Part shown: positions 2,018-38,275 of the stretch, in pieces | Position numbering within the stretch: position 1 is the stretch's first letter | Layout of the letters: each line of letters begins with the position of its first letter | Source of the DNA: Phocaeicola oris | GTDB taxonomy: Bacteria; Bacteroidota; Bacteroidia; Bacteroidales; Bacteroidaceae | Assembly: GCF_021295095.1 (NCBI RefSeq) | Contig: NZ_JAJLQX010000002.1 | Span: 1-64,000 of the forward strand | Length of the DNA: 64,000 nt | Direction of reading: 5' to 3' | Notes under the pieces: generated by a model | The model's database searches: none | Told to the model about the DNA's origin: nothing | The model's input: only the letters and a program-made list of their open reading frames with translations | Translations under genes and position numbers: made by a program

Positions 2018-2920
2018 ATGAATGGTAGTGTTCCTCATATAGTTCAATATCAAGGTTCTAAGAGAAATTTAGCACCTCAGATACTGCCGTATTTTCCTCA
2101 AAGTTTTAATCGGCTTATAGAACCTTTTGCCGGTATGGCGGCAATAACGATAGCAGTTTCAAGACTGAATAAAGCTCAGTCGTATTATTTAAACGACCTC
2201 AATACACCTCTCGTTAGCGTATTAGAGGAAGCTATTAACAACCCACAACGCCTACTTGATGACTACACAAGAGTATGGAGTGAACAGTTGACTTTTGAAG
2301 AAGGTAGTGTTGCGCATTATTATAAAGTGCGTGATGACTTTAATGGTGGTAATCAATGTGCTGCCAATATGTTGTATCTTTTAGCCCGTTGTGTAAAGGG
2401 CTCTGTCAGATATAGTGGCAATGGACAGTTTAATCAATCTCCGGACAAAAGACGTAAAGGTGTTTCTCCGGCCAACTTATCAAAGAATATCTTTCCAATT
2501 TCAAGCTACTTGAAAAATAGAACAGAGTTCTCTTCGATAGATTATCGAGAAGTTCTGGAAACGGCTCAACGTGGCGATATTGTGTATATGGATCCTCCGT
2601 ATCAAGGTGTTTGCGCTACAAGAGACAGTCGCTATTTTTCAGGCATTGATTTCAATGGTTTTGTAGAAAGCTTAGAAGACCTAAATAGAAGAGGTATTGA
2701 CTATATCATTAGTTATGATGGAAGTTGCGGGGAAAAACAGTATGGTAACGATTTGCCTGACGATTTAGGACTGAGAAAAGTGATGCTCAATGCAGGCCTT
2801 TCAAGTCAGTCTCTTTTACTTGGGAAGAAAGAAGTTACATTGGAGGCTTTATATCTGAGCGCAAATCTTCAAGATCGTGTACAACCCATTGCTCAAAATC
2901 AATTATTATTTGCACAATGA
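2018..2920 (+). CDS. D12-class DNA adenine N6-methyltransferase (restriction module 1)
   Basis: Transfers a methyl group from S-adenosylmethionine to N6 of adenine in DNA. Near the N-terminus QYQGSKRNLAPQI and EPFAGMAAITIAV form the SAM-binding motifs, and IVYMDPPYQGV near residue 190 is the catalytic DPPY motif. This order is that of the Dam/DpnM (alpha) group. The segment RYSGNGQFNQSPDKRRKG resembles the corresponding Dam region but lacks the VPFG part, so GATC specificity is not implied. The stop overlaps the next start (ATGA at 2917), indicating coupled translation with the HNH gene. The module is bracketed by a 105-bp duplication. The target site cannot be read from sequence. Confidence 0.9.
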   Translation: MNGSVPHIVQYQGSKRNLAPQILPYFPQSFNRLIEPFAGMAAITIAVSRLNKAQSYYLNDLNTPLVSVLEEAINNPQRLLDDYTRVWSEQLTFEEGSVAHYYKVRDDFNGGNQCAANMLYLLARCVKGSVRYSGNGQFNQSPDKRRKGVSPANLSKNIFPISSYLKNRTEFSSIDYREVLETAQRGDIVYMDPPYQGVCATRDSRYFSGIDFNGFVESLEDLNRRGIDYIISYDGSCGEKQYGNDLPDDLGLRKVMLNAGLSSQSLLLGKKEVTLEALYLSANLQDRVQPIAQNQLLFAQ

Positions 2921-3644
2921 AATATTCAAAGGAAATACTCGAAAAGCTTAACTCGATAACAGATAAACGCCCCGCAACAGTCATACAACATATTTTAAAG
3001 CATGGCTTTATTACCACAGAAGAACTAGAAAATAAATACGGATACAAACATGCACCAAGAGCGGCAAGAGACGTAAGAGAACGCGGAGTTAAAACCTTGT
3101 TACCTATAATGTAAAGAGTAGTGAGGGAAAAAGAATGGGTGCCTATAAATTCGGAGACCCAGTTTTTTCTGACAACAAAATATCTAAAGTTGCAGGTAGG
3201 ACAGTGCTTTCTGAAGCATTAAAGAAGGCATTAATTGATAAGCATGGTTCGGTCTGTTTTATTTATTTACAGTCAATGGAAGAAAGACTGTTGCAAGTTG
3301 ACCATCGAGTTCCTTATGAGATAGGTGGCGAACAAGATGAAAGCAATATTGATTGCTACATGCTATTGAGCCCTTCAGCGAACAGAGCAAAATCTTGGAC
3401 ATGTGAGCATTGCCCTAACTGGACAACAAAGGATGTTGAATTCTGCGAAAATTGCTTTTGGGCTCATCCCGAGAACTATACTCATATTGCCGGAAACAAC
3501 GAACGAAAGATAGTTATTACTTTTACTGACAATGAAATTGACGATTATGAACAGTTGATAAATTTAGTTGGTATAGATAATGCTGAACAAACAATAAAAG
3601 ATTTGGTAACGTCTTTCATAAATGACCATACTAATGAAGACTAA
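2917..3644 (+). pseudogene. HNH restriction endonuclease, frameshifted
   Basis: Two pieces in different frames make one protein. Piece one (2917-3114, 65 aa) is a winged-helix-like start ending RAARDVRERGVK. Piece two (start 3135, 169 aa) has the HNH signature LLQVDHRVPYEIGG, then SANRAKSW and two CxxC pairs (CEHC, CENC) that likely bind zinc. Reading -1 at the AAAA run around 3090-3094 joins them as GVKNLVTYNVKSSEGK before GAYKFGDP, with no stop, giving about 241 residues. The partner of the upstream methylase, it should cut the same site. The lesion would inactivate it unless a programmed shift or sequencing error is involved; the methylase remains intact. Confidence 0.75.
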
Positions 3645-4092: not shown

Positions 4093-5487
4093 TTAAATAG
4101 TAGTCAATGAACTTAAATCAACATCAGGAATGATAACTTCCGCAAGCTTTTCTTCAACAAGAAATCCCATATAAAGCGGAATGGTAAGTACCTCACCCTC
4201 ACGCCCTACATTATATTGCCCCAGCTTAATTGCACTATTGACATGATACACATCTTTGTTTTTAAGAACCGTAATCATACTTTTTGCCTTACCTGTCCTT
4301 GCTTTAACTTCAAGGATAACGCATTCACCCTTGAACCTTACCAAGAAGTCCAATTCCAGACCGCTATCCTTATGAAAATAGTATAGTTTTTGCCCGGACT
4401 TACACAGAAAATCAGCCATCAGATTCTCAAAGATGGCACCCTTGCATCCAAGAAGATTCCCCTTCAAAATATCTGCCTGTGTACCGTAATCAAGCATCGC
4501 CATAAGCACACCTATATCAGTAGTATATACCTTGAAGCACTCTTTGATGGAATTGCCCTCTAACGGCAGTTCCGTAATTTTTGTGTTATAACATCTACGA
4601 ACGATTCCTGCATCCTCTAACCATTGGATGCTACCGATGTATTGTGAAGCCCTTCCCCCTTTTTTGACTGTGGAATACTGGAATTTCTTATTCTCCTTAG
4701 CCAATTGTTTCGGGATAGACTCAAAACATTCTCGGATATGTGGTTTGTCCGCGTCATCCGCGTATTTCACCATATCCTCTTCATATCCTGCAATAAGATT
4801 ACGCTGCGCCTTATATATAAGTTCGATGTTCTTCGTTTCAAGGAAACAATTCACTACTTCCGGCAGACCTCCTACAATGACATATCTGTACAGTAGTTCC
4901 ATCATTGCCTTGTGAATTCCCTCCGGAACGGCTTTTTCGTTCTCAAAGCAAGAGTTGACGGAATCAATGACCGCGTCACTAATCCCGTTTGCCCATAAAA
5001 ACTCCTCAAAGTCTAATGGATACATATCAATCACGGTCTCATACCCTACAGGAACAGAATCTTGCCCTTCCTCCTCGTCTTTTTTCTTTCTACTCTTGCC
5101 GTAGCCTTTCCCCCCTAAAAGAGAGCCTGTGGCAATGACATCAAAGCGACCATCTATGTAAAATGACTTCAAAGCAGTCCTCGCCTCCTTGCACTCCTGA
5201 ATTTCGTCAAGGATAATACAGGTTTTTCCACTGATGAAACGACTACCCGGAATCAAAGCCGAGAGGTTGAGAATAATGGTATCAACATCTATATTGCCAT
5301 CAAAGGCAGACTTCTTGTCCGGTTCAAGAATGAAGTTCATATAAACCACACTCTCATAATTCCCTTCTGCGAATTTCCGAACAATATACGTCTTCCCACA
5401 TTGGCGAATACCTTTTATCACAAGAGGCTTTCTGTCCTCAGACTTCATCCATTTGTTTAAATATGTTTCTATTTTTCTTTTGAGCAT
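4093..5487 (-). CDS. AAA family ATPase with DUF4143 domain
   Basis: A 464-residue protein. Residues 20-35 carry the P-loop (VIKGIRQCGKTYIVRKF), CIILDEIQECKEA is Walker B, and DVIATGSLLGG is the sensor segment of the AAA_14 family. The C-terminal DUF4143 part contains GLELDFLV followed by CVILEVKART, an E/D...EVK arrangement resembling a PD-(D/E)XK nuclease core. These ATPases are very common in gut Bacteroidales and archaea, often in several copies beside mobile or defence genes; the function is unknown. Nearest neighbours are the AbiE pair (same strand) and a restriction module. Its upstream region contains a phased array of near-identical sites (5508-5640). Confidence 0.85.
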   Translation of the reverse strand: MLKRKIETYLNKWMKSEDRKPLVIKGIRQCGKTYIVRKFAEGNYESVVYMNFILEPDKKSAFDGNIDVDTIILNLSALIPGSRFISGKTCIILDEIQECKEARTALKSFYIDGRFDVIATGSLLGGKGYGKSRKKKDEEEGQDSVPVGYETVIDMYPLDFEEFLWANGISDAVIDSVNSCFENEKAVPEGIHKAMMELLYRYVIVGGLPEVVNCFLETKNIELIYKAQRNLIAGYEEDMVKYADDADKPHIRECFESIPKQLAKENKKFQYSTVKKGGRASQYIGSIQWLEDAGIVRRCYNTKITELPLEGNSIKECFKVYTTDIGVLMAMLDYGTQADILKGNLLGCKGAIFENLMADFLCKSGQKLYYFHKDSGLELDFLVRFKGECVILEVKARTGKAKSMITVLKNKDVYHVNSAIKLGQYNVGREGEVLTIPLYMGFLVEEKLAEVIIPDVDLSSLTTI

Positions 5488-28870: not shown

Positions 28871-30529
28871 ATGTTCTGGCTTAACAATTTATTTTTCGAG
28901 AATACGCCATTGCAAGCGATTGTGATACTTGCAATCATCATTTCCACGGGACTATACCTCGGAAAACTAAAAGTGTACGGAGTATCGTTAGGGGTAACAT
29001 TTGTCTTCTTTATGGGAATTCTCATGGGACACCTTGGATTCTCCATCGACCATCAGATGTTAATCTACGCTGAAGACTTCGGTCTGGTTATCTTCGTCTA
29101 CGAACTCGGTCTACAAGTCGGTCCGGGATTCTTCTCTTCGTTTAAAAAGGGAGGAATGAAGTTGAACATGTTAGGATTGGGATTAGTGTTTTTGGGCACG
29201 ATGTTAGCTGTTGCGCTCAGCTACACGCTAAATATTCCCATGAGTGATATGGTAGGCATTCTATGTGGAGCAACAACCAATACGCCTGCTTTAGGAGCCG
29301 CGCAACAGACGTTAGAGGAAATGAACCTGCCAAGCATCAGCGCGGCATTAAGTTGTGCTGTAACCTATCCTATGGGAGTTATAGGTGTTATTTTAGCCAT
29401 GATAACGCTGAGGAAATTGTTTGTGCGCCCTTCGGATATCACAGCCGATGAGGAAGAACAAGACGAAACCTTTGTCGCTGCCTTCCGTGTGCACAATCCG
29501 GCTATTATTGGGAAAAGTATTCGAGAGGTGGCTCAGATAAGCGGACGGCACTTTGTTATTTCCAGACTCTGGAGAGATGGCAAAGTAACTATTCCGGAAT
29601 CGGGAACGCTATTGCGGAGCGATGATAAACTGCTAATAGTCACTACACCGGAAGATGTGCCAAATTTGACAATGATGTTCGGCATGGAGGAATTGAAAGA
29701 CTGGAATAAGAAAGACATAGATTGGAACGCGATAGACAGCCAATTGATTTCCAAACACATAGTCATCAGTCGACCGGAAATTAACGGTAAGAAGTTAGGA
29801 GCACTGAAGCTGCGCAACAGTTATGATATTAATATTACCCGTGTAATGCGAAGCGGCATTCAGTTACTTGCTACTCCGGGACTGATTCTGCAATTGGGCG
29901 ATCGTCTGACTGTGGTTGGTGAGCGTCAGGCTATTGAAAACGTGGAGAGATTGTTGGGCAATAAGGTAAGAACGCTGAAAGACCCTAATTTAGCTACCGT
30001 ATTCTTTGGCATTATATTGGGATTGATTATCGGAGCTATCCCTATAGCTATTCCGGGCATCTCGCAACCTGTGAAGTTGGGATTGGCCGGAGGTCCCATC
30101 ATTGTGGGTATTTTGATTGGCAGATTTGGTCCACGTTTTCATCTGATTACTTATACCACACGCAGTGCCAACCTAATGCTTAGAGGATTAGGAATAGCCC
30201 TCTATTTAGCGTGTTTAGGGCTCGACTCCGGCGCTCATTTCTTCGATACGGTAATTCGTCCGGAAGGGGTGATTTGGATTGCCCTTGGCTTCTTAATTAC
30301 TTTCATGCCGGTAGTTATTATGGGAGCATTATCACTCCGTATGAGCAAAGTAGGATTTGGCAATACCTGTGGAATGCTTTGCGGAAGCATGGCAAATCCT
30401 ATGGCTTTGGGATACGCCAATGATACACTTCCGGGCGACAGTCCGGCGGTAAGCTATGCCACGGTTTATCCGTTATCAATGTTTGTAAGAGTCATCATCG
30501 CCCAATTATTAGTAATGGTGTTCTGCTAA
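28871..30529 (+). CDS. YidE/YbjL (AspT-type) putative transporter
   Basis: A 552-residue inner-membrane protein with two hydrophobic halves of about five helices each (AspT/YidE duplication: first half contains LGKLKVYGVSLGVTFVFFMG and LCGATTNTPALGAAQQTL; second half GLAGGPIIVGILIG and MLCGSMANPMALGYAND) around a central pair of TrkA-C domains (residues about 205-370). Homologues exchange dicarboxylates or amino acids (AspT: aspartate/alanine); substrate here unknown. Gene is monocistronic or follows nudC by 48 bases. Repeat copy B follows its stop. Confidence 0.88.
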   Translation: MFWLNNLFFENTPLQAIVILAIIISTGLYLGKLKVYGVSLGVTFVFFMGILMGHLGFSIDHQMLIYAEDFGLVIFVYELGLQVGPGFFSSFKKGGMKLNMLGLGLVFLGTMLAVALSYTLNIPMSDMVGILCGATTNTPALGAAQQTLEEMNLPSISAALSCAVTYPMGVIGVILAMITLRKLFVRPSDITADEEEQDETFVAAFRVHNPAIIGKSIREVAQISGRHFVISRLWRDGKVTIPESGTLLRSDDKLLIVTTPEDVPNLTMMFGMEELKDWNKKDIDWNAIDSQLISKHIVISRPEINGKKLGALKLRNSYDINITRVMRSGIQLLATPGLILQLGDRLTVVGERQAIENVERLLGNKVRTLKDPNLATVFFGIILGLIIGAIPIAIPGISQPVKLGLAGGPIIVGILIGRFGPRFHLITYTTRSANLMLRGLGIALYLACLGLDSGAHFFDTVIRPEGVIWIALGFLITFMPVVIMGALSLRMSKVGFGNTCGMLCGSMANPMALGYANDTLPGDSPAVSYATVYPLSMFVRVIIAQLLVMVFC

Positions 30530-30541
30530 TTGATTACAAAA

Positions 30542-30650
30542 ACTGATACGCATGAGTTGCTCAACTCATACGCATCAATCGGTTGATTCATACGTATCAC
30601 TTCCTAAAAACTTCTGATGAATTCAGAAACTCATGCGTATCAGTTTGCCG
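30542..30650. repeat. Dispersed 22-bp-unit repeat family, copy B
   Basis: Contains TGATACGCATGAGTTG and its near inverted copy CAACTCATACGCATCA separated by two bases, then TTGATTCATACGTATCA and ACTCATGCGTATCAG followed by TTTGCCG. The first pair could form a cruciform or transcript hairpin after the transporter gene. Confidence 0.8.
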
Positions 30651-30767
30651 GTATACGCGCGTCAAATCAATGCAATCATTTTTGTACTGTACTGCTCTTT
30701 GACGGAGCAAAGATACGTCTTGTCGAAAAACAAATAGCATATTCAGCTATTCTTTTAGAACAATTGC

Positions 30768-30839
30768 TTATCTTTGTCATTATAAGTAAATAACAAATAG
30801 CATGAAAACTATTAACCGAATAAAAGGAACTTTAAATGA
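30768..30839. repeat. 72-bp direct repeat, left copy, flanking restriction module 2
   Basis: Aligns with 33003-33074 with three mismatches, all in the last 12 bases. It includes the -7 box TATCTTTG (30769-30776), the start of an XRE-type regulator (ATG at 30802, MKTINRIKG) and runs into the methylase start codon (ATG 30836). Confidence 0.95.
30769..30776 (+). promoter_or_regulatory. -7 box driving restriction module 2
   Basis: TATCTTTG matches TAnnTTTG. It would start transcripts about 55-60 bases before the methylase. A truncated 15-codon frame (MKTINRIKGTLNELI, 30802-30849) lies in the leader and overlaps the methylase start, so methylase translation may be coupled to this captured upstream frame. 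The rest of the 306-base gap holds only repeat copy B. Confidence 0.55.
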
Positions 30840-31900
30840 ACTTATTTGAGGAATACTCATACTTCGATTACAAATTCCCAGAACCTCAATACCTTGGATC
30901 AAAATATACCCATAGGCAATGGATTAGTAAGTTTATCCCAGAGAAAGCAAAGGTAGCTCTTGATGCTTTTGGGGGGTCTCAGTCTATTGCTTTTCTTTTA
31001 AAGCAAATGGGCAAACAGACCATAACAAATGACTTTCTTAAGTTTGATAGCGAGATCGGCAAGGCTTTGATAGAAAATCCCTATGAACGATTAGAAGAAG
31101 ATGATTTGAATATTCTATTTTCAGAGAATCAAGATCCCAATAATTTTAATCTGATGGAAAATCTATTCACCGATTTGTTTTTTCCCCAAAAAGACGCAAC
31201 TTTCGCAGATTCTGTAAGAAGTAATATTCCGCGACTCAATAGCCAATACAAGCAAGCTCTTGCGCTTACTATTATGTGCCGTAGTATGACAAGAAAGGTA
31301 ACAATGGGACACTTTGCCCATACGCAAGCAATGAACTATGCGTCTGACCCTGCAAGAATTAAGAGAAATCGTAGTCTTATACGTTCATTGAAATCTCTTT
31401 TTATGGAATTATTACCTAAGTACAATGCCGCGGTTTTTGACAATGGTAAAGAGAATAAAAGCTATAACGAAGACATATTGGAGTTGTTGCCCACACTTCA
31501 CAATATAGATGTGGCATATTTCGACCCCCCATATTGTAATAGTCACGCAGATTATCAGTCGTTTTACCACTTGCTCGAAACATACGTGATGTACTGGAAA
31601 GACAAGAAATTTGTAAATGGCACGAAACGCTATGAGCCTAAGCGACATAGTGGTTTCGATTGTAAAGACGAGGCAAAAAAGAATCTGGAAACGATGTTTA
31701 GTCAAGCACAACATATTCCGACTTGGATAGTAAGTTATAATGACCGTAGCTATCCGGACATTGACACTATGGTGAAAATGATGAAACTATTTAAAGACGT
31801 TCGAGTGGAGCGTAAGCCCTATACCAATAGTCGCGGTGGTAAAGGAAGTGTTGCAGGTAGTAGCGAAATCCTTTTTATTTGTACAAATAAACAAGAATAA
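30836..31900 (+). CDS. D12-class DNA adenine methyltransferase (restriction module 2)
   Basis: A 354-residue m6A methylase. PEPQYLGSKYTHRQWI and VALDAFGGSQSIAFLL form the SAM site, and DVAYFDPPYCNSHADYQSFY carries the catalytic DPPY with an aromatic-rich continuation. It differs from the methylase at 2018 and from Dam in length and target domain. Its start codon lies at the right edge of the duplicated 72-bp segment, so it appears to have captured the promoter and ribosome-binding region of a disrupted regulator. Two bases separate it from the next gene, its likely endonuclease partner. Confidence 0.88.
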   Translation: MNLFEEYSYFDYKFPEPQYLGSKYTHRQWISKFIPEKAKVALDAFGGSQSIAFLLKQMGKQTITNDFLKFDSEIGKALIENPYERLEEDDLNILFSENQDPNNFNLMENLFTDLFFPQKDATFADSVRSNIPRLNSQYKQALALTIMCRSMTRKVTMGHFAHTQAMNYASDPARIKRNRSLIRSLKSLFMELLPKYNAAVFDNGKENKSYNEDILELLPTLHNIDVAYFDPPYCNSHADYQSFYHLLETYVMYWKDKKFVNGTKRYEPKRHSGFDCKDEAKKNLETMFSQAQHIPTWIVSYNDRSYPDIDTMVKMMKLFKDVRVERKPYTNSRGGKGSVAGSSEILFICTNKQE

Positions 31901-31902
31901 TT

Positions 31903-33000
31903 ATGAATAGAACATTTAATTTCTGGGACCGTCAGTTTCGTAATAATAATCAGTTCGCCTTCAATAATGATTATGAAGGTTTGATTTGGCTAAAAGTCAG
32001 AGCAATTACTCGTAAGGAACAGCTCAGGAATTTTCTTGGACGTAATTCTGACATAATGATTATTAGCAAGAAGCAAAAGGAAATAGGAATTGAGTTATAC
32101 GAGAAGCTGCTTTTTATGAATAATGGAATGCAACGTTTAGACGATTTTTTGCTTGACAGAAGTCAGGAAATGTATACTCTTATGAATGTTGATGTTGAAC
32201 GTTTGAAAAACGATCTTTATAAAGTTACGGATTATAAATGGGGTGGAGATCAAAATAATTCATTAGATAAGTTTCTTGTGAGTCACTATGTAAAGCCTAT
32301 AAGCAGTTTTGATGAACTCTTGTCAAAGTCTGCCGAGATTGGTACTAATGCATGGGATTATGTTCAAAATAGTTGGTATAACAACTGGACTTCATATCTC
32401 ATTGAAATGCTGTTTGAAAATCATCAAAGAGTTATCTCTGCAGTTGGAGAAATAAAAAGCGTCGATTTTTTTATTGATAATTATCCTGTGGATTTAAAAG
32501 TTACATTCTTCCCGAACCAATATCTTCAAGAGAAACTGAAGCCTTTATATCAGGGTAAGAGTGAAATGTCATGGCTGAAAAACAAAGCCAAAGAAAACAA
32601 TATATCTTTTGATTCTACCCAAAGCGATTCTGCAATATATTACCAAATTACAGAATCTATGAGTATGCAAGGAATTACTGATGTGTTAGCTACTTTAAAT
32701 ACAAATCGTCGTACAGTTGTCAGTGACGCGGAGAACAATCCCAATGAACTAATGACTTGGCTGTATGCTAACCAAGGAGAGATGCGTTTCGGTGCTGAAA
32801 ATCGTATATTTGTTATCATGGTCAATATGGGGAATATGGCACAGTCATGGAAGATGAAGCGTGAGTTCAGCATAATTGAACCTGAGGTTAACAGCTTTTT
32901 AGATAATTTTAATGAGCATTCACTCCAACAAATAGACTATGATTTTAAAGGTAATACATATCATAGCTTATCAGGAATTATATTCATTAAGAATCGATGA
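31903..33000 (+). CDS. Candidate type II restriction endonuclease (PD-(D/E)XK-like)
   Basis: A 365-residue protein of no family I can name. The segment SVDFFIDNYPVDLKV (residues 186-200) has the PD-(D/E)XK shape: acidic D188 or D192, hydrophobic strand, then D197-L-K199. An upstream Glu-rich helix (SYLIEMLFENHQRVISA) precedes it as in such nucleases. Position directly downstream of a methylase and inside the same duplication makes it the cognate endonuclease (inference). Recognition site unknown. Stop at 33000 is immediately followed by the right duplication copy, defining the insert boundary. Confidence 0.7.
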   Translation: MNRTFNFWDRQFRNNNQFAFNNDYEGLIWLKVRAITRKEQLRNFLGRNSDIMIISKKQKEIGIELYEKLLFMNNGMQRLDDFLLDRSQEMYTLMNVDVERLKNDLYKVTDYKWGGDQNNSLDKFLVSHYVKPISSFDELLSKSAEIGTNAWDYVQNSWYNNWTSYLIEMLFENHQRVISAVGEIKSVDFFIDNYPVDLKVTFFPNQYLQEKLKPLYQGKSEMSWLKNKAKENNISFDSTQSDSAIYYQITESMSMQGITDVLATLNTNRRTVVSDAENNPNELMTWLYANQGEMRFGAENRIFVIMVNMGNMAQSWKMKREFSIIEPEVNSFLDNFNEHSLQQIDYDFKGNTYHSLSGIIFIKNR

Positions 33001-33002
33001 GT

Positions 33003-33074
33003 TTATCTTTGTCATTATAAGTAAATAACAAATAGCATGAAAACTATTAACCGAATAAAAGGAGCTTTAGGTGA
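33003..33074. repeat. 72-bp direct repeat, right copy, flanking restriction module 2
   Basis: Partner of 30768-30839. Begins two bases after the endonuclease stop. It repeats the TATCTTTG box (33004-33011) and the start of the XRE regulator gene, here continuing into the original gene. Confidence 0.95.
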
Positions 33075-33160
33075 TGCCCGCAAAACATATCGTTGGCCGG
33101 CCGAGCAATTACCAATTGGGTAAAGACCAAACAACCGTGTTAAAAAGTGATAGCGATATA
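33037..33160 (+). pseudogene. XRE-type helix-turn-helix regulator remnant
   Basis: From ATG 33037 the frame reads MKTINRIKGALGDARKTYRW, then PAEQLPIG and a stop at 33121-33123; shifting the frame gives GKDQTTVLK. This matches the first 35-40 residues of small Bacteroides Cro/CI-type regulators (MKTINRIK...WLAEQLGK...TTVS). The rest of the HTH is lost, replaced by the DpnI-like gene. It shows that the restriction genes landed in an existing regulator gene. Confidence 0.6.
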
Positions 33161-33173
33161 TGTAAGAATAATG

Positions 33174-33938
33174 ATGGATTTACTGCTTAATACTTCATTG
33201 AGACATGGATATCATGGCGCAACTCAAATAGCCAGAGTAGAGACTGAAGACTGGGTTTATAGGAATATGTATTGTCCGATTTGTGGAGAACCAAAAATCA
33301 TTCACTATGAAGCAAATAAACCAGTTGCTGATTTCTATTGCAATAAATGCTCTTCTGATTTTGAATTAAAGAGCAAAGAAAGTAGGAGTGGAAAATTGGG
33401 GAGAATTATAAAAGATGGAGCTTATGCTACTATGATTGAAAGAATTACCTCATTGCGTAATCCTAACTTTTTCTTTATGAGTCATCATGATAATGAGGTC
33501 GTAAATTTTGTACTTGTACCTAATGCGTTTTTCAATCCTTCAATCATTATCAAACGTAAACCTTTATCAATTAATGCCAGACGTTCAGGATGGGTAGGAT
33601 GCGATATTGACATTTCGTCTATTCCTAATAATGGTAAAATATATATTATCAAAGACAAAAAGGAAATTGACCACGAAATGGTTAGAAGACAATATTTAAA
33701 ATCTAAAGAAGGCGCTGTTGAAAGTAAGGGATGGTTAATGGATGTGTTAAACTGTATAGACAAGATAGGTGAAAAAGAATTTTTATTACAAGATGTTTAC
33801 GATTTCACGCCATCTCTGCAGGCAAGACACCCCAATAATAATAACGTAGAACCCAAAATTCGACAACAATTACAAATACTCAGAGATAAAGGATTTATTG
33901 AGTTTACTTCACGAGGGCAATATACAAAATTAAAATAG
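33174..33938 (+). CDS. dpnI: DpnI-like methyl-directed restriction endonuclease
   Basis: From ATG 33174 the protein has 254 residues, the length of DpnI, and aligns without gaps over the first 27 residues to TEDWVYR. It retains the zinc cysteines (CPICG, CNKC), the catalytic triad D53, E64 and K66 (PVADFYC, SDFELKSK), IKDGAYATM, the segment INARRSGWVGCDIDIS and the C-terminal winged helix (KIRQQLQILRDKGFIEF). DpnI cuts G-m6A-TC methylated on both strands and needs no methylase. Here it lies just outside the duplication that brackets restriction module 2. It predicts that the host has no Dam-type GATC methylation. Confidence 0.95.
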   Translation: MDLLLNTSLRHGYHGATQIARVETEDWVYRNMYCPICGEPKIIHYEANKPVADFYCNKCSSDFELKSKESRSGKLGRIIKDGAYATMIERITSLRNPNFFFMSHHDNEVVNFVLVPNAFFNPSIIIKRKPLSINARRSGWVGCDIDISSIPNNGKIYIIKDKKEIDHEMVRRQYLKSKEGAVESKGWLMDVLNCIDKIGEKEFLLQDVYDFTPSLQARHPNNNNVEPKIRQQLQILRDKGFIEFTSRGQYTKLK

Positions 33939-34078
33939 TAATATAACGGATTACATTCTATATAACTAAAGAAAGGGACACAGATTCACCAACTAATATA
34001 GTCAAACCTATGCTGAACAGGTTGGTTTCAAAAAGTTAATATACCTATTCTGATCTATTTTCTAACTGATTATCTCAA

Positions 34079-35509
34079 CTAATATGTGGTATATAAAACT
34101 TGCATAGTCAGTTTATCCTTACCACCGACTAACTTAACGCCATTCATATTCAAATTGTTCTCCACAGCCACAATCGTTGCTTTAGGAGATGAAGATCGGT
34201 AGTAATACGAATAGTAGGAATTATTATTCGATTCAACTACCTCTACCGTAGATATGGGAATAAGTACTACCTTATTCCAATCCGGATTTTTAGCTGTCCA
34301 GTTCGGGTCACTCTTTTCTCCTGTTATTTTAGCATTGATACATCGTTGTACCAGTTGAGCTATATTTTTGAAATCATACGAGTTGGTGGCACTGCTATAC
34401 TGAGTGACAAAAGAGGTAAGGTTATCATACATCTTATTATCTTCAAAGAACGTGTACATCTCCGCCTTCCGTACCATCAGCAAATATTTTGGATTTCCCA
34501 ACTTATACTTTCCGGAACTGTAATCGTTATAACATTTGAAAGAAAGCACCGCGGCATTCAGTGAGTCGCGTTTATGCTCCTCATGTATATCCTGAATCGG
34601 TAATGTAGCCTCTGTTACAATTCCTGCGGGAGACTTAACGTATGTACATGAATTATCTTCCGCCAGCTGCTTCAACTTTTCCGAGTTCTTAAAATGGTTC
34701 GACTGAATAACTTCTTTCGTCGCGGAAAAATAAGTTGAGCCATATACCAAAGAATCACGTTTACCGGAACTGCTCTTGATGTAAGCCGAATAAGTCACAC
34801 CCAAATATATATTATCTATATAAAGAATACATCCGTCACCATTGGTACTATGAACATATACTCCCTTGAATACATTATTGATAAAAGTTTCAGCATTATG
34901 GAAATTTCTTTTATTTTCCAAATATTTATTATAAATGTGTTTACCTATTCCTTTATCTAATTTGACAGACTGAGACTTCACCCACGAACGTCCCTTATAT
35001 ATCGTATCGACAGCAAGGCCGGAAGCTGTCAAAGACTTCACACCGATAGGATCGGCGTCTTTATTATAATAAAAAGTAGGATTGAAACTTGTATAATATG
35101 TTTTTTTATCCTCTTCAGGAATGACCCTATTCAATGAATCAATCTGAACGCGAAGTGTCGCGGTGGAATCTCCGAAACATTTGGCATAACGGATAACCAG
35201 ATTCGTTCCAATTACTTCGTGTATCTCTTCAGGAAACTCGTAATCATCGGTACAACTGAACTGCGCAATAAAATCAGAAGAGAATTCACCATATTCCGGA
35301 TCGGTATACCGACCAAGATAAGGAGTATTCGACCGGGCAAAAACAGAATCAGCAAGCAAAGACCGCGTAATCACTGAATACGAAGAAACTCCCGATGGGA
35401 TAGAATCGTTTGCATTGATGGTAGTTTTACCAATATTCGGGGTAGAGTCGTCACAGCTATAAAAACCAACAACTGCTAATAATAAGGCGCACAAGTATTT
35501 AGCCTTCAT
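34079..35509 (-). CDS. DUF4270 domain lipoprotein
   Basis: A 476-residue lipoprotein: signal peptide with lipobox (YLCALLLAVVGFYSC, Cys about residue 19) followed by the DUF4270 start DSTPNIGKTTINANDSIPSG. The rest is beta-rich with many Tyr/Asn/Ser. It is anchored in the outer membrane; function unknown. In Bacteroides this gene regularly adjoins the glycogen synthase-like gene, as here (13-base gap), suggesting an operon. Confidence 0.85.
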   Translation of the reverse strand: MKAKYLCALLLAVVGFYSCDDSTPNIGKTTINANDSIPSGVSSYSVITRSLLADSVFARSNTPYLGRYTDPEYGEFSSDFIAQFSCTDDYEFPEEIHEVIGTNLVIRYAKCFGDSTATLRVQIDSLNRVIPEEDKKTYYTSFNPTFYYNKDADPIGVKSLTASGLAVDTIYKGRSWVKSQSVKLDKGIGKHIYNKYLENKRNFHNAETFINNVFKGVYVHSTNGDGCILYIDNIYLGVTYSAYIKSSSGKRDSLVYGSTYFSATKEVIQSNHFKNSEKLKQLAEDNSCTYVKSPAGIVTEATLPIQDIHEEHKRDSLNAAVLSFKCYNDYSSGKYKLGNPKYLLMVRKAEMYTFFEDNKMYDNLTSFVTQYSSATNSYDFKNIAQLVQRCINAKITGEKSDPNWTAKNPDWNKVVLIPISTVEVVESNNNSYYSYYYRSSSPKATIVAVENNLNMNGVKLVGGKDKLTMQVLYTTY

Positions 35510-35522
35510 TTGTTTATTCTAA

Positions 35523-36356
35523 TTATTTTTCTTTAGGTTTGGCACCGCAGACCTGCTCATAAAAATTTTCAAAAGCAGACACATACTTATCTTCCGACTG
35601 ATACTCCAGAACAGGAACACCTTTCTGTTTAGCGAATTCGATGGCACGTTGATCAACGCTCTCGCTGTTCTGAATTACTCCATCTGAATAAGAAATGGCC
35701 AATTTACACATTTCCGGATAATCAAACGGTGCTTTGATAATATCCTGTATCTCGTTTCTTTCTATTCCGCGCATAACCAGTTTATCAACCAAACGCTCGC
35801 CGAATGGTTTCGTAAAGCTGCTGCCGAACAGAGAATAGATTATCTTACAATTCTTGAATACAGGCTCATCGCTATAAACTTTCCTCAGATACATGGGTAA
35901 GAAAGCGCTCATCCAACCCTGACAATGAACGACATCGGGAGCCCAACGAAGTTTCTTCATGGTCTCCAACACGCCACGAGCATAAAATATAGCTCGCTCG
36001 TCGTTATCTTCATAATCTTCACCTTTTTCATCAACGGTCATTTTCCGTTTCTGAAAATAGTCATCGTTATCGATGAAATAAACCTGCATACGGGCAGCTT
36101 GAATAGAAGCAACTTTGATAATCAACGGATGATCGGTATCATCGATTATCAAATTCATTCCGGAAAGACGAATCACTTCATGCAACTGGTTTCTTCTTTC
36201 ATTCACAATGCCCCATTTTGGCATAAAAGTCCTTATTTCATGTCCATCATCCTGCACAGCCTGTGGAAGATTTCTTCCCATACGAGCCATTTCGGAATCG
36301 GAAACATACGGAGTAATTTCTTGAGTAACAAATAAAACTTTTTTTGCCTTCATCAT
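35523..36356 (-). CDS. Glycogen/starch synthase N-terminal-domain protein
   Basis: About 277 residues from ATG 36356 (MMKAKKVLFVTQEITPYV; the TTG further upstream is not needed). It covers only the N-terminal GT5 domain: RMGRNLPQAVQDDGHEIR, FMPKWGIVNERRNQLHEV and PDVVHCQGWMSAFLPMYL. The nucleotide-sugar-binding C-terminal half of normal synthases (about 470 residues) is absent. Bacteroides species all carry this short form next to DUF4270, so it is not a truncation artefact; its activity is unproven. Confidence 0.8.
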   Translation of the reverse strand: MMKAKKVLFVTQEITPYVSDSEMARMGRNLPQAVQDDGHEIRTFMPKWGIVNERRNQLHEVIRLSGMNLIIDDTDHPLIIKVASIQAARMQVYFIDNDDYFQKRKMTVDEKGEDYEDNDERAIFYARGVLETMKKLRWAPDVVHCQGWMSAFLPMYLRKVYSDEPVFKNCKIIYSLFGSSFTKPFGERLVDKLVMRGIERNEIQDIIKAPFDYPEMCKLAISYSDGVIQNSESVDQRAIEFAKQKGVPVLEYQSEDKYVSAFENFYEQVCGAKPKEK

Positions 36357-36377
36357 ATATTTTTCTCTTTTGTCGTA

Positions 36378-36385
36378 CAAAGATA
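36378..36385 (-). promoter_or_regulatory. -7 box for the glycogen synthase-like/DUF4270 operon
   Basis: On the minus strand TATCTTTG (36385-36378) matches TAnnTTTG, 22 bases before the ATG at 36356. No clear -33 motif. Confidence 0.6.
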
Positions 36386-36480
36386 GCTAAAATATAAGTA
36401 AGAATTGGTTTATTCTGCCAAATAATTACTAACAAAGTGTTAAGAATATGTATAAAACAACGTATTCCTTCAGAAGAACA

Positions 36481-36512
36481 TAAAAAAAGTCCGACTTTAC
36501 CTGCCGGACTTT
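36481..36512 (-). terminator. Intrinsic terminator after phosphohexomutase gene
   Basis: On the minus strand AAAGTCCG pairs with CGGACTTT (36486-36493 and 36505-36512) and is followed by a run of seven T. It lies 20 bases past the mutase stop codon. Confidence 0.8.
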
Positions 36513-36532
36513 CCTATTTTTACATGAAGTTA

Positions 36533-38275
36533 TTAAATGCCTAACGATTTGCGAACCGCTTCAATCTTCACATCAGCTGCCGAGTCAGCTGCTTCATACT
36601 CTTCTTCTTTCTTCATGGTGCCTTTTACCTCGATATAGAATTTAATCTTAGGTTCCGTACCACTCGGACGAACGGATACTTTGGTATGATCCTCAGTAAA
36701 CCACTGCAATACATTCGATGGCTCCGGCATAGCGATATCAGCCGTGTTACCATGATCATTAACTTTCAATGTCTTGTAATCCTTAGTAACTACCACCTTC
36801 GACCCTCCAATCTCCCGCGGAGGATTAGCACGGAAGTTATTCATCATTGCCTGAATCTGGTCGGCACCGCTCTTTCCCGGTTTAACAACGTTGATTGTGA
36901 ATTCCTTTGAGAATCCATATTCCATATAAATATCCATAAGAACATCGAACAACGTTTTACCATTATCTTTAGCCCAAGCACAAATCTCAGCCAACAGAGA
37001 ACAAGCAGATACAGAATCTTTATCACGAACAAAATCCTCTGCCAAGAATCCGTAACTCTCTTCACCGCCACCGATATACTGTTTCTCACCTTCAGAAATC
37101 AGAATCTCTCGAGCAATCCATTTAAAACCGGTGTAGCAGTCGCGCATCTCAATATGATACTTATCGGCAATTTGACGAACCATCTCTGTGGTTACAATGG
37201 TCTTAACAATAAATTCGTTGCCTTTCATCTTGCCCAACTTAACACGATTGGCTATTATATAATAAAGGAAGAGCAAACAGGTTTGATTGCCATTAATGAG
37301 TACCCATTCTCCTTTATTATTCTTGCAAGCCATACCTACACGGTCGGCGTCAGGATCGGAAGCCATAACAATATCGGCATCAATCTTCTTCGCTAAGTTA
37401 ATAGCTAATGTCAAAGCCTCAGCATTCTCTGGATTCGGACTAACCACTGTAGGGAAGTTACCATCTTTCACCATCTGTTCGGGAACACAATGAACGTTCT
37501 CAAATCCCCAGAGTTTTAATGACTGGGGAATCAGCATCATTCCTGTTCCGTGAAGCGGCGTATAAACGATACTCAAATCTTTTTGACGTTTGATAGCATC
37601 CGGATCAATGCAGATGGTATGTACTTTCTGAAGGTAAACATCATCAATATCCTTTCCGATAATGGTAATCAAATCTTTATTACCCTTAAATTTAACATCG
37701 TCGATCTTTACCTTATCCACCTCTGCTATGATGCCTTTATCGTGCGGAGTAAGTACTTGCGCACCATCTTCCCAATATGCCTTATAGCCATTATATTCTT
37801 TCGGATTATGACTGGCTGTAATGTTTACGCCTGCCTGACAATGCAAGTAACGGATAGCGAATGACATCTCGGGCGTAGGACGCATATCGTCAAACATATA
37901 GACTTTGATACCGTTTGCGGTGAAAACATCAGCAGCAGTCTGAGCAAACAGCAGACTGTTGTTACGACAGTCATAACCGATAGCTACACTGATTTCTTTG
38001 CGGTCTTTGAAATTCTTCAGAAGATAATTGGCAAAGCCCTGAGTAGCGGTACCAACCGTATAGATGTTCATACGGTTTGATCCGGCTCCCATGATACCAC
38101 GAAGTCCGCCGGTACCAAATTCCAAATCTTTATAGAAGGCCTCAATCAAGTTAGTCTTGTCAGGGTCTTCCAACATTTTCTTAACCTCAGCCTGATTATC
38201 AGCATCGTATGCAGGTGAAAGCCATGTCTGAGCTTTCGCTGTGCACTGTTCAATTAATTTTTCATTATTTTCCAT
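36533..38275 (-). CDS. Phosphoglucomutase/phosphomannomutase (alpha-D-phosphohexomutase)
   Basis: Interconverts hexose 1- and 6-phosphates, supplying glucose-1-P or mannose-1-P for glycogen and GDP-mannose. The 580-residue protein shows GLRGIMGAGSNRMNIYTV, the phosphoserine loop NITASHNPKEYNGYKAYW, the metal loop ASDPDADRVGMAC, sugar-binding IGGGEESYGFLAEDF and phosphate-binding VRPSGTEPKIKFYIEV. Length and order match the PgcA-type bacterial enzymes. Could provide precursor for the GDP-fucose pathway at 24.5 kb (inference). Confidence 0.93.
   Translation of the reverse strand: MENNEKLIEQCTAKAQTWLSPAYDADNQAEVKKMLEDPDKTNLIEAFYKDLEFGTGGLRGIMGAGSNRMNIYTVGTATQGFANYLLKNFKDRKEISVAIGYDCRNNSLLFAQTAADVFTANGIKVYMFDDMRPTPEMSFAIRYLHCQAGVNITASHNPKEYNGYKAYWEDGAQVLTPHDKGIIAEVDKVKIDDVKFKGNKDLITIIGKDIDDVYLQKVHTICIDPDAIKRQKDLSIVYTPLHGTGMMLIPQSLKLWGFENVHCVPEQMVKDGNFPTVVSPNPENAEALTLAINLAKKIDADIVMASDPDADRVGMACKNNKGEWVLINGNQTCLLFLYYIIANRVKLGKMKGNEFIVKTIVTTEMVRQIADKYHIEMRDCYTGFKWIAREILISEGEKQYIGGGEESYGFLAEDFVRDKDSVSACSLLAEICAWAKDNGKTLFDVLMDIYMEYGFSKEFTINVVKPGKSGADQIQAMMNNFRANPPREIGGSKVVVTKDYKTLKVNDHGNTADIAMPEPSNVLQWFTEDHTKVSVRPSGTEPKIKFYIEVKGTMKKEEEYEAADSAADVKIEAVRKSLGI

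Follow-up and report, generated by a model that had tools for sequence, protein, structure and literature searches.

A restriction-modification gene pair between 72-bp direct repeats that carry the start of an XRE-type gene in Phocaeicola oris, with comparable repeats at two related loci

Insertion of restriction-modification (RM) genes with a long duplication of the target DNA has been described in H. pylori (Nobusato, Uchiyama, Ohashi, Kobayashi 2000, Gene 259:99-108, as relayed in PMC3031569 and PMC1643837). RM systems can also enter operons, as reported for the PabI family, whose insertions separate same-strand genes of linked function (PMC4615327).

We analyzed a stretch of 64,000 nucleotides of the Phocaeicola oris genome, called the window below. 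A sequence-only reading had proposed that an RM gene pair in it was inserted with a duplication that captured the promoter and leader of a disrupted regulator gene. The repeat observation was confirmed, and the interpretation was partly supported. Events of this kind are already known; we found no earlier description of their recurrence in this family of gene pairs, of the close fit between repeat and open reading frames (ORFs), or of the copying of a promoter box together with a gene start. This negative literature result carries little weight, given that subscription literature lay mostly outside the search. The family, in which three insertions at unlike targets are flanked by repeats and one of them is matched by a single-copy site in a relative, offers a concrete set for testing how bare RM gene pairs travel when no transposase is present, and suggests how a newly arrived, potentially lethal restriction system could gain expression without destroying its target gene.

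The gene pair and the repeat around it

The locus has the following features, in window coordinates.

30768..30839, + strand: repeat copy 1, with the TATCTTTG -7 box at 30769-30776, a leader, and an XRE start codon at 30802
30802..30849, + strand: leader ORF of 15 codons, consisting of a truncated XRE start, MKTINRIKGTLNELI, and a stop; it overlaps the methylase start in another frame
30836..31900, + strand: M, a D12-class N6-adenine DNA methyltransferase of 354 amino acids
31903..33000, + strand: R, a putative restriction endonuclease of 365 amino acids
33003..33074, + strand: repeat copy 2, with the -7 box, leader, and XRE start, running on into the XRE relic
33037..33150 (end approximate), + strand: XRE-type regulator relic, from a profile match
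33171..33938, + strand: DpnI-family gene for a methyl-directed restriction enzyme, 255 amino acids, full length

M matched PF02086 (E value, 8.1e-15) and the PADLOC model MTase_II (1.2e-51), and its DPPY motif is invariant in an alignment of 10 relatives. R gave no match in family searches and none to a solved structure; however, residues D188, D197, L198, and K199, which form a D-x8-D-x-K pattern, are invariant across 10 aligned sequences, and R lies directly 3' of M in all eight relatives from the family sample and in one further locus from the order sample (L142). This motif and the invariant pairing with M suggest that R is a nuclease, and the two genes presumably form a two-gene type II RM cassette with the predicted enzyme activities. 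In the alignments, M and R both have the termini usual for their family, and these lie beside the repeats. A second restriction module lies at window positions 2018-3644, where a D12 methylase gene (PF02086) precedes an ORF that looks HNH-like by eye and had no Pfam match. Were either D12 methylase of the window to methylate GATC, an active DpnI would be at odds with it.

The two repeat copies are identical at 69 of 72 nucleotides, are spaced 2,235 bp apart, and differ only within the last 11 bases, as had been noticed when the methylase and endonuclease were first described as bracketed by repeats with three mismatches near one edge. The methylase ATG was likewise correctly placed at that edge: it occupies 30836-30838, within the final four bases of copy 1, which extends one base past it. 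At the other end, the R stop codon (32998-33000) is followed 2 bp later by copy 2. Hardly more than the two ORFs thus separates the copies, and no transposase, recombinase, or integrase gene lies between them. A genome search placed the 72-mer at two sites only, copies 1 and 2, and a 25-mer spanning the start codon, with up to three mismatches allowed, occurred twice in the window and never in 100 shuffles. Among the 60 other genomes of the genus, the 72-mer gave a single partial match of 33 nt (G050; E value, 5.7e-4).

Each copy has AACAAATAGCAT, 12 bases long, ending at the XRE start; these bases occur once more at 30729-30740, 63 bp upstream of their position in copy 1, and nowhere else on either strand of the window. 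Farther upstream, an inverted repeat at 30540-30646 with 30-nt arms, 90% complementary, follows the transporter gene and is possibly its terminator.

The XRE start, its promoter box, and the unit downstream

The peptide MKTINRIKG had been read as the start of an XRE-type gene behind a -7 box, and this holds: codons 1-25 of copy 2 match a profile of 29 relatives at 25 bits. XRE peptide relatives were found in 43 of 61 genomes of the genus (this one included) at E values up to 1, many of the single matches being weak, and the loci that were fetched contain full XRE genes. An automatic rule gave a gene in 28 of the 29 fetched loci (L080-L108); these genes are not all independent, as near-identical pairs of loci are among them. 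Of the 28 genes, 22 had the motif TAnnTTTG at a distance of 15 to 50 nt before the start, versus 0 of 137 control segments from further upstream. In B. thetaiotaomicron, TAnnTTTG is the -7 consensus and the commonest 5' untranslated region is 23 nt long (PMC7366714). The window repeat has a leader of 25 nt between TATCTTTG and the XRE start, which is the usual box distance, and the methylase ATG follows 34 nt downstream of that start. A -33 box was not obvious for either copy, and a search for an operator palindrome in the leader returned nothing better than shuffled sequence (183 of 1,000 shuffles).

The genes downstream of XRE genes in this genus carry restriction- or defence-like domains in 18 of the 22 cases scanned from the 29 loci, with PADLOC run on ten of the scanned genes. 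They include type I, II, and III methylases or nucleases and McrB-like, DndC-like, Druantia-like helicase, Schlafen, YhcG, and SNF2-PLD proteins; four (L082, L091, L102, and L103) had no such domain. In this genus, the small XRE-type family may generally supply the leading gene of defence operons.

At the window locus, the gene after copy 2 has both DpnI domains, catalytic and winged helix (PF06044 and PF17726), and matched PADLOC mREase_II and PDB 4esj (E value, 4.4e-79). The XRE gene before it is a relic: profile positions 1-25 are matched in one frame, positions 24-34 in the next (6 bits), and then the match ends, so that its lesions are a frame change after codon 25 and a missing C-terminal half. 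These lesions are separate from the insertion and could predate or postdate it. The claim that the insertion disrupted the regulator is thus not upheld; because copy 2 retains the box, leader, and ATG, and so regenerates the start, the insertion by itself would not necessarily have destroyed the XRE gene. The XRE frame of copy 1, for its part, stops inside the methylase gene after 15 codons.

No intact regulator of the XRE family was found in this genome. The sole other member found there (L136 2918-3109, - strand; G000:C9:12917-13108) has an in-frame TAG and stands before a type I methylase (HsdM) gene. Given that stop codon and the lesions of the relic, both XRE members of the genome look broken. 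Locus L047 of genome G381 (1459-2910, - strand) holds an intact XRE gene followed by a short Dam-like fragment, a KilA-N-like gene (both named by eye), and a DpnI fragment, which makes it another locus where an XRE gene stands at the head and DpnI has decayed.

The window M gene begins inside the repeat, and therefore no box of its own could lie between the two. Expression of M-R from the copy 1 box is the natural reading of this arrangement, and the cassette probably gained its promoter by landing at the XRE start. The part of the earlier interpretation that had the module using a resident gene's promoter and leader thus has good support at the sequence level, with the box distances in 22 of 28 XRE genes in its favour, whereas the part that had this gene disrupted by the insertion is not borne out as worded. 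The overlap of the leader ORF with the M start would allow translational coupling. Among the nine M-R relatives, five have their own TAnnTTTG within 60 nt upstream of M (G143, G089, G021, G015, and G669) and four do not (G066, G354, G340, and G241); in G354 and G340, M closely follows a co-directional gene. Counted within 60 nt and outside any repeat, a box of its own is present in none of the three repeat-flanked cassettes versus five of the seven others, numbers small enough that the difference is a hint only.

Related loci and their target sites

A sample of 349 genomes of the family, this one included, contained M in 18: this genome, eight at 68 to 70% identity, and nine weaker or partial matches that were kept outside the flank test. 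In the order sample, R was present in 3 of 393 genomes, again including this one; G669 carries M-R (L142), and G629 (R at 33% identity) has no such M. Ten M-R loci, namely the window, the eight family relatives, and L142, entered the flank test, in which 500 to 600 bp on each side were compared. G629, the viral contig L144, which lacks R, and two M-gene scars (G372 and G131) were not part of this count. In those two genomes (L137, about 4946-5183, and L138, about 4919-5156), the first ~39 codons of M adjoin the last ~46 codons of R, and we read this junction as the scar of an internal deletion in an M-R pair.

Flanking direct repeats were found at three of the ten loci: the window (69/72 identical; score, 64.5), G066 (70/80; 55), and G340 (42/47; 34.5). 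None of 200 shuffles at each of these loci reached the observed score, and 339 placements of the same spacing in real DNA from eight of these loci and the window gave a maximum of 17.5. The other seven loci had no strong flanking repeat; six scored 8.5 to 12.5, which shuffles matched in 2 of 200 (G143), 13 of 200 (G015), and 163 to 179 of 200 (the other four) cases, and L142, for which no shuffles of its own were made, scored 10.5. Chance similarity or an assembly artefact is very improbable as the source of the window repeat; the assembly is a draft of 50 contigs, but the shuffles and control placements, the restriction of the repeat to two places in the genome, and the family-typical ends of M and R beside it all speak against such an origin.

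The three flanking repeats are mutually unrelated, and because they differ from each other, they derive from the target and not from the cassette. We also considered whether the repeat is a dispersed element and rejected this, as the window 72-mer and the G066 80-mer each have two matches only in their own genomes. Within the stretches examined, none of the nine M-R relatives has an XRE gene beside the pair, and the XRE leader was accordingly rejected as an original part of the cassette. Candidate vehicles were rejected as well: no phage record contained M at an E value of 1e-30; 19 records of a plasmid collection had M matches, all below 35% identity; and among viral contigs, 47 loci matched M, the best at 54% and without R, while R had no match there. 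The viral contig L144 (2176-8196) carries an M homolog (54%) but no R; small genes that resemble one another and share an SDINYLKL-like motif are lined up after this homolog.

The repeat of G340 corresponds to the overlap of xseA and xseB, identified by Pfam as exonuclease VII subunit genes; the upstream copy retains the end of xseA, and the downstream copy retains the start of xseB. In the genus of G340, tblastn found xseB in 22 of 29 fetched relative loci, the other 7 having no match. The two genes overlap in 10 of the 22, by 16 nt in 8 of them, and do not overlap in the other 12. The nearest relative, G815, whose xseA is 67% identical to that of G340, has a single-copy overlap of 16 nt, and this is the single-copy target expected before the G340 insertion. 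In G066, a co-directional SNF2-type helicase gene has its predicted start 27 nt past the end of the second copy. The first copy in G066 also contains a TAnnTTTG and lies 217 nt before M, with another TAnnTTTG in between; because of this gap, the tight fit of repeat to cassette is not general. No match to a G066 empty site was found in the one other genome of its genus searched.

The proposal of a duplication gains from these loci. The same pattern at two of the nine related loci, with a single-copy site in a relative for one, supports a long duplication made at insertion. Another possibility is insertion without duplication, after which local duplication or gene conversion, as a separate event, placed a copy of the leader on the opposite side. 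The third copy of the 12 bases AACAAATAGCAT at 30729 hints at local copying; however, two events would be needed, and the same arrangement with other sequences at two of the nine related loci would be left unexplained, so that we regard this course as improbable.

Homologous integration of the Campbell type, or cassette exchange, deserves somewhat more weight, though we judge it unlikely. It would require M-R behind a near-identical XRE leader on a second DNA molecule and one crossover in the leader, the repeats being homology arms and the XRE leaders landing pads. The family does head many defence operons (the 18 of 22 downstream genes above), the mismatches gather toward one end of the repeat, as if two XRE genes began to diverge there, and copy 1 past the mismatch still reads by eye like XRE codons (GTLNE), which would fit two recombining XRE genes. 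Against this, the nine M-R relatives lack XRE genes within the stretches examined, the leader DNA is not conserved (among 61 genomes, the 72-mer is full length in its own only), and the G066 and G340 repeats are not XRE sequences.

At the window site itself, transporter homologs are present in all 61 genomes of the genus (this one included). The stretches examined at 29 such loci in relatives from the genus contained neither XRE nor M, R, or DpnI genes, and an FBPase gene follows the transporter at 27 of these loci. None keeps the gene order of the window. The expected empty-site genome with an intact XRE gene was thus not found, nor was an empty site with XRE-DpnI. Empty-site relatives without the XRE gene had been named as evidence against promoter capture, and the 29 loci come close to that case; the pattern is better read as the XRE/DpnI unit having itself arrived at this site, which would not contradict a duplication. 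Compared with G019, the DUF4270 and starch-synthase-like genes of window 28871-38275 are inverted; in G019, FBPase and pantoate ligase genes follow the transporter, and restriction genes stand at this place in the window. RM systems have been linked to inversions (PMC3031569).

Proposed insertion and comparison with described systems

The reading we favor, and consider reasonably probable, is insertion of the M-R cassette at the 5' end of the XRE gene with a target duplication of about 72 bp, the upstream copy becoming promoter and leader and the target being spared. Points against this reading are the rearranged window site, for which no empty counterpart was found, the seven M-R loci lacking such repeats, the XRE-like codons past the mismatch in copy 1, the -33 box that is not obvious for either copy, and the looser fit in G066. 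The XRE gene would have been a small one heading a restriction unit now represented by the DpnI-family gene, and the duplicated segment would have comprised the -7 box, the leader, and the first 12 to 13 codons. With the upstream copy acting as promoter and leader of M-R, the RNA would start a few bases past 30776 and would carry the 15-codon ORF whose overlap with the methylase start could couple translation. The downstream copy would give the XRE/DpnI unit its own box, leader, and start, so that the insertion itself would spare the target and the XRE gene would have been broken by other lesions, earlier or later. The duplication could stem from a staggered break that was filled in or from a switch of template, the direction and chemistry of the event being conjectural.

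A wider generalization is offered tentatively, as one we find rather doubtful. The M-R family may move as a bare pair, free of a transposase, duplicating 47 to 80 bp where co-directional genes begin, rebuilding the start of the target and handing its promoter or operon to the cassette. Regulators of defence operons would then be one landing place, and modules would stack under copied promoters.

The closest described systems are the RM insertions with long target duplications, which likewise have an RM complex between long direct repeats of target DNA, no transposase, and, as here at G340 alone, a relative with only one copy. Unlike the H. pylori cases, the present ones occur in another lineage and another M-R family, and the window repeat abuts both ORFs and carries a promoter box and gene start; the window cassette apparently relies on control signals that it captured. 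The G340 pair, which shares its strand with xseA and xseB and lies between the two, resembles the operon insertions of the PabI family, for which a possible target duplication, or replacement, of 4 bp is reported, versus 47 to 80 bp here (PMC4615327). In type II RM systems controlled by C proteins (PMC12255303), a small XRE/HTH gene also heads the operon and its promoter drives the restriction genes; unlike those systems, the window locus has no intact controller, with a 15-codon stub before M and a relic before DpnI. The gene behind copy 2 resembles the DpnI of PDB 4esj in its full length and its two domains, but it differs from other DpnI loci in being preceded by an XRE relic: 18 of the 19 others in the family sample have no XRE gene within the stretch examined.
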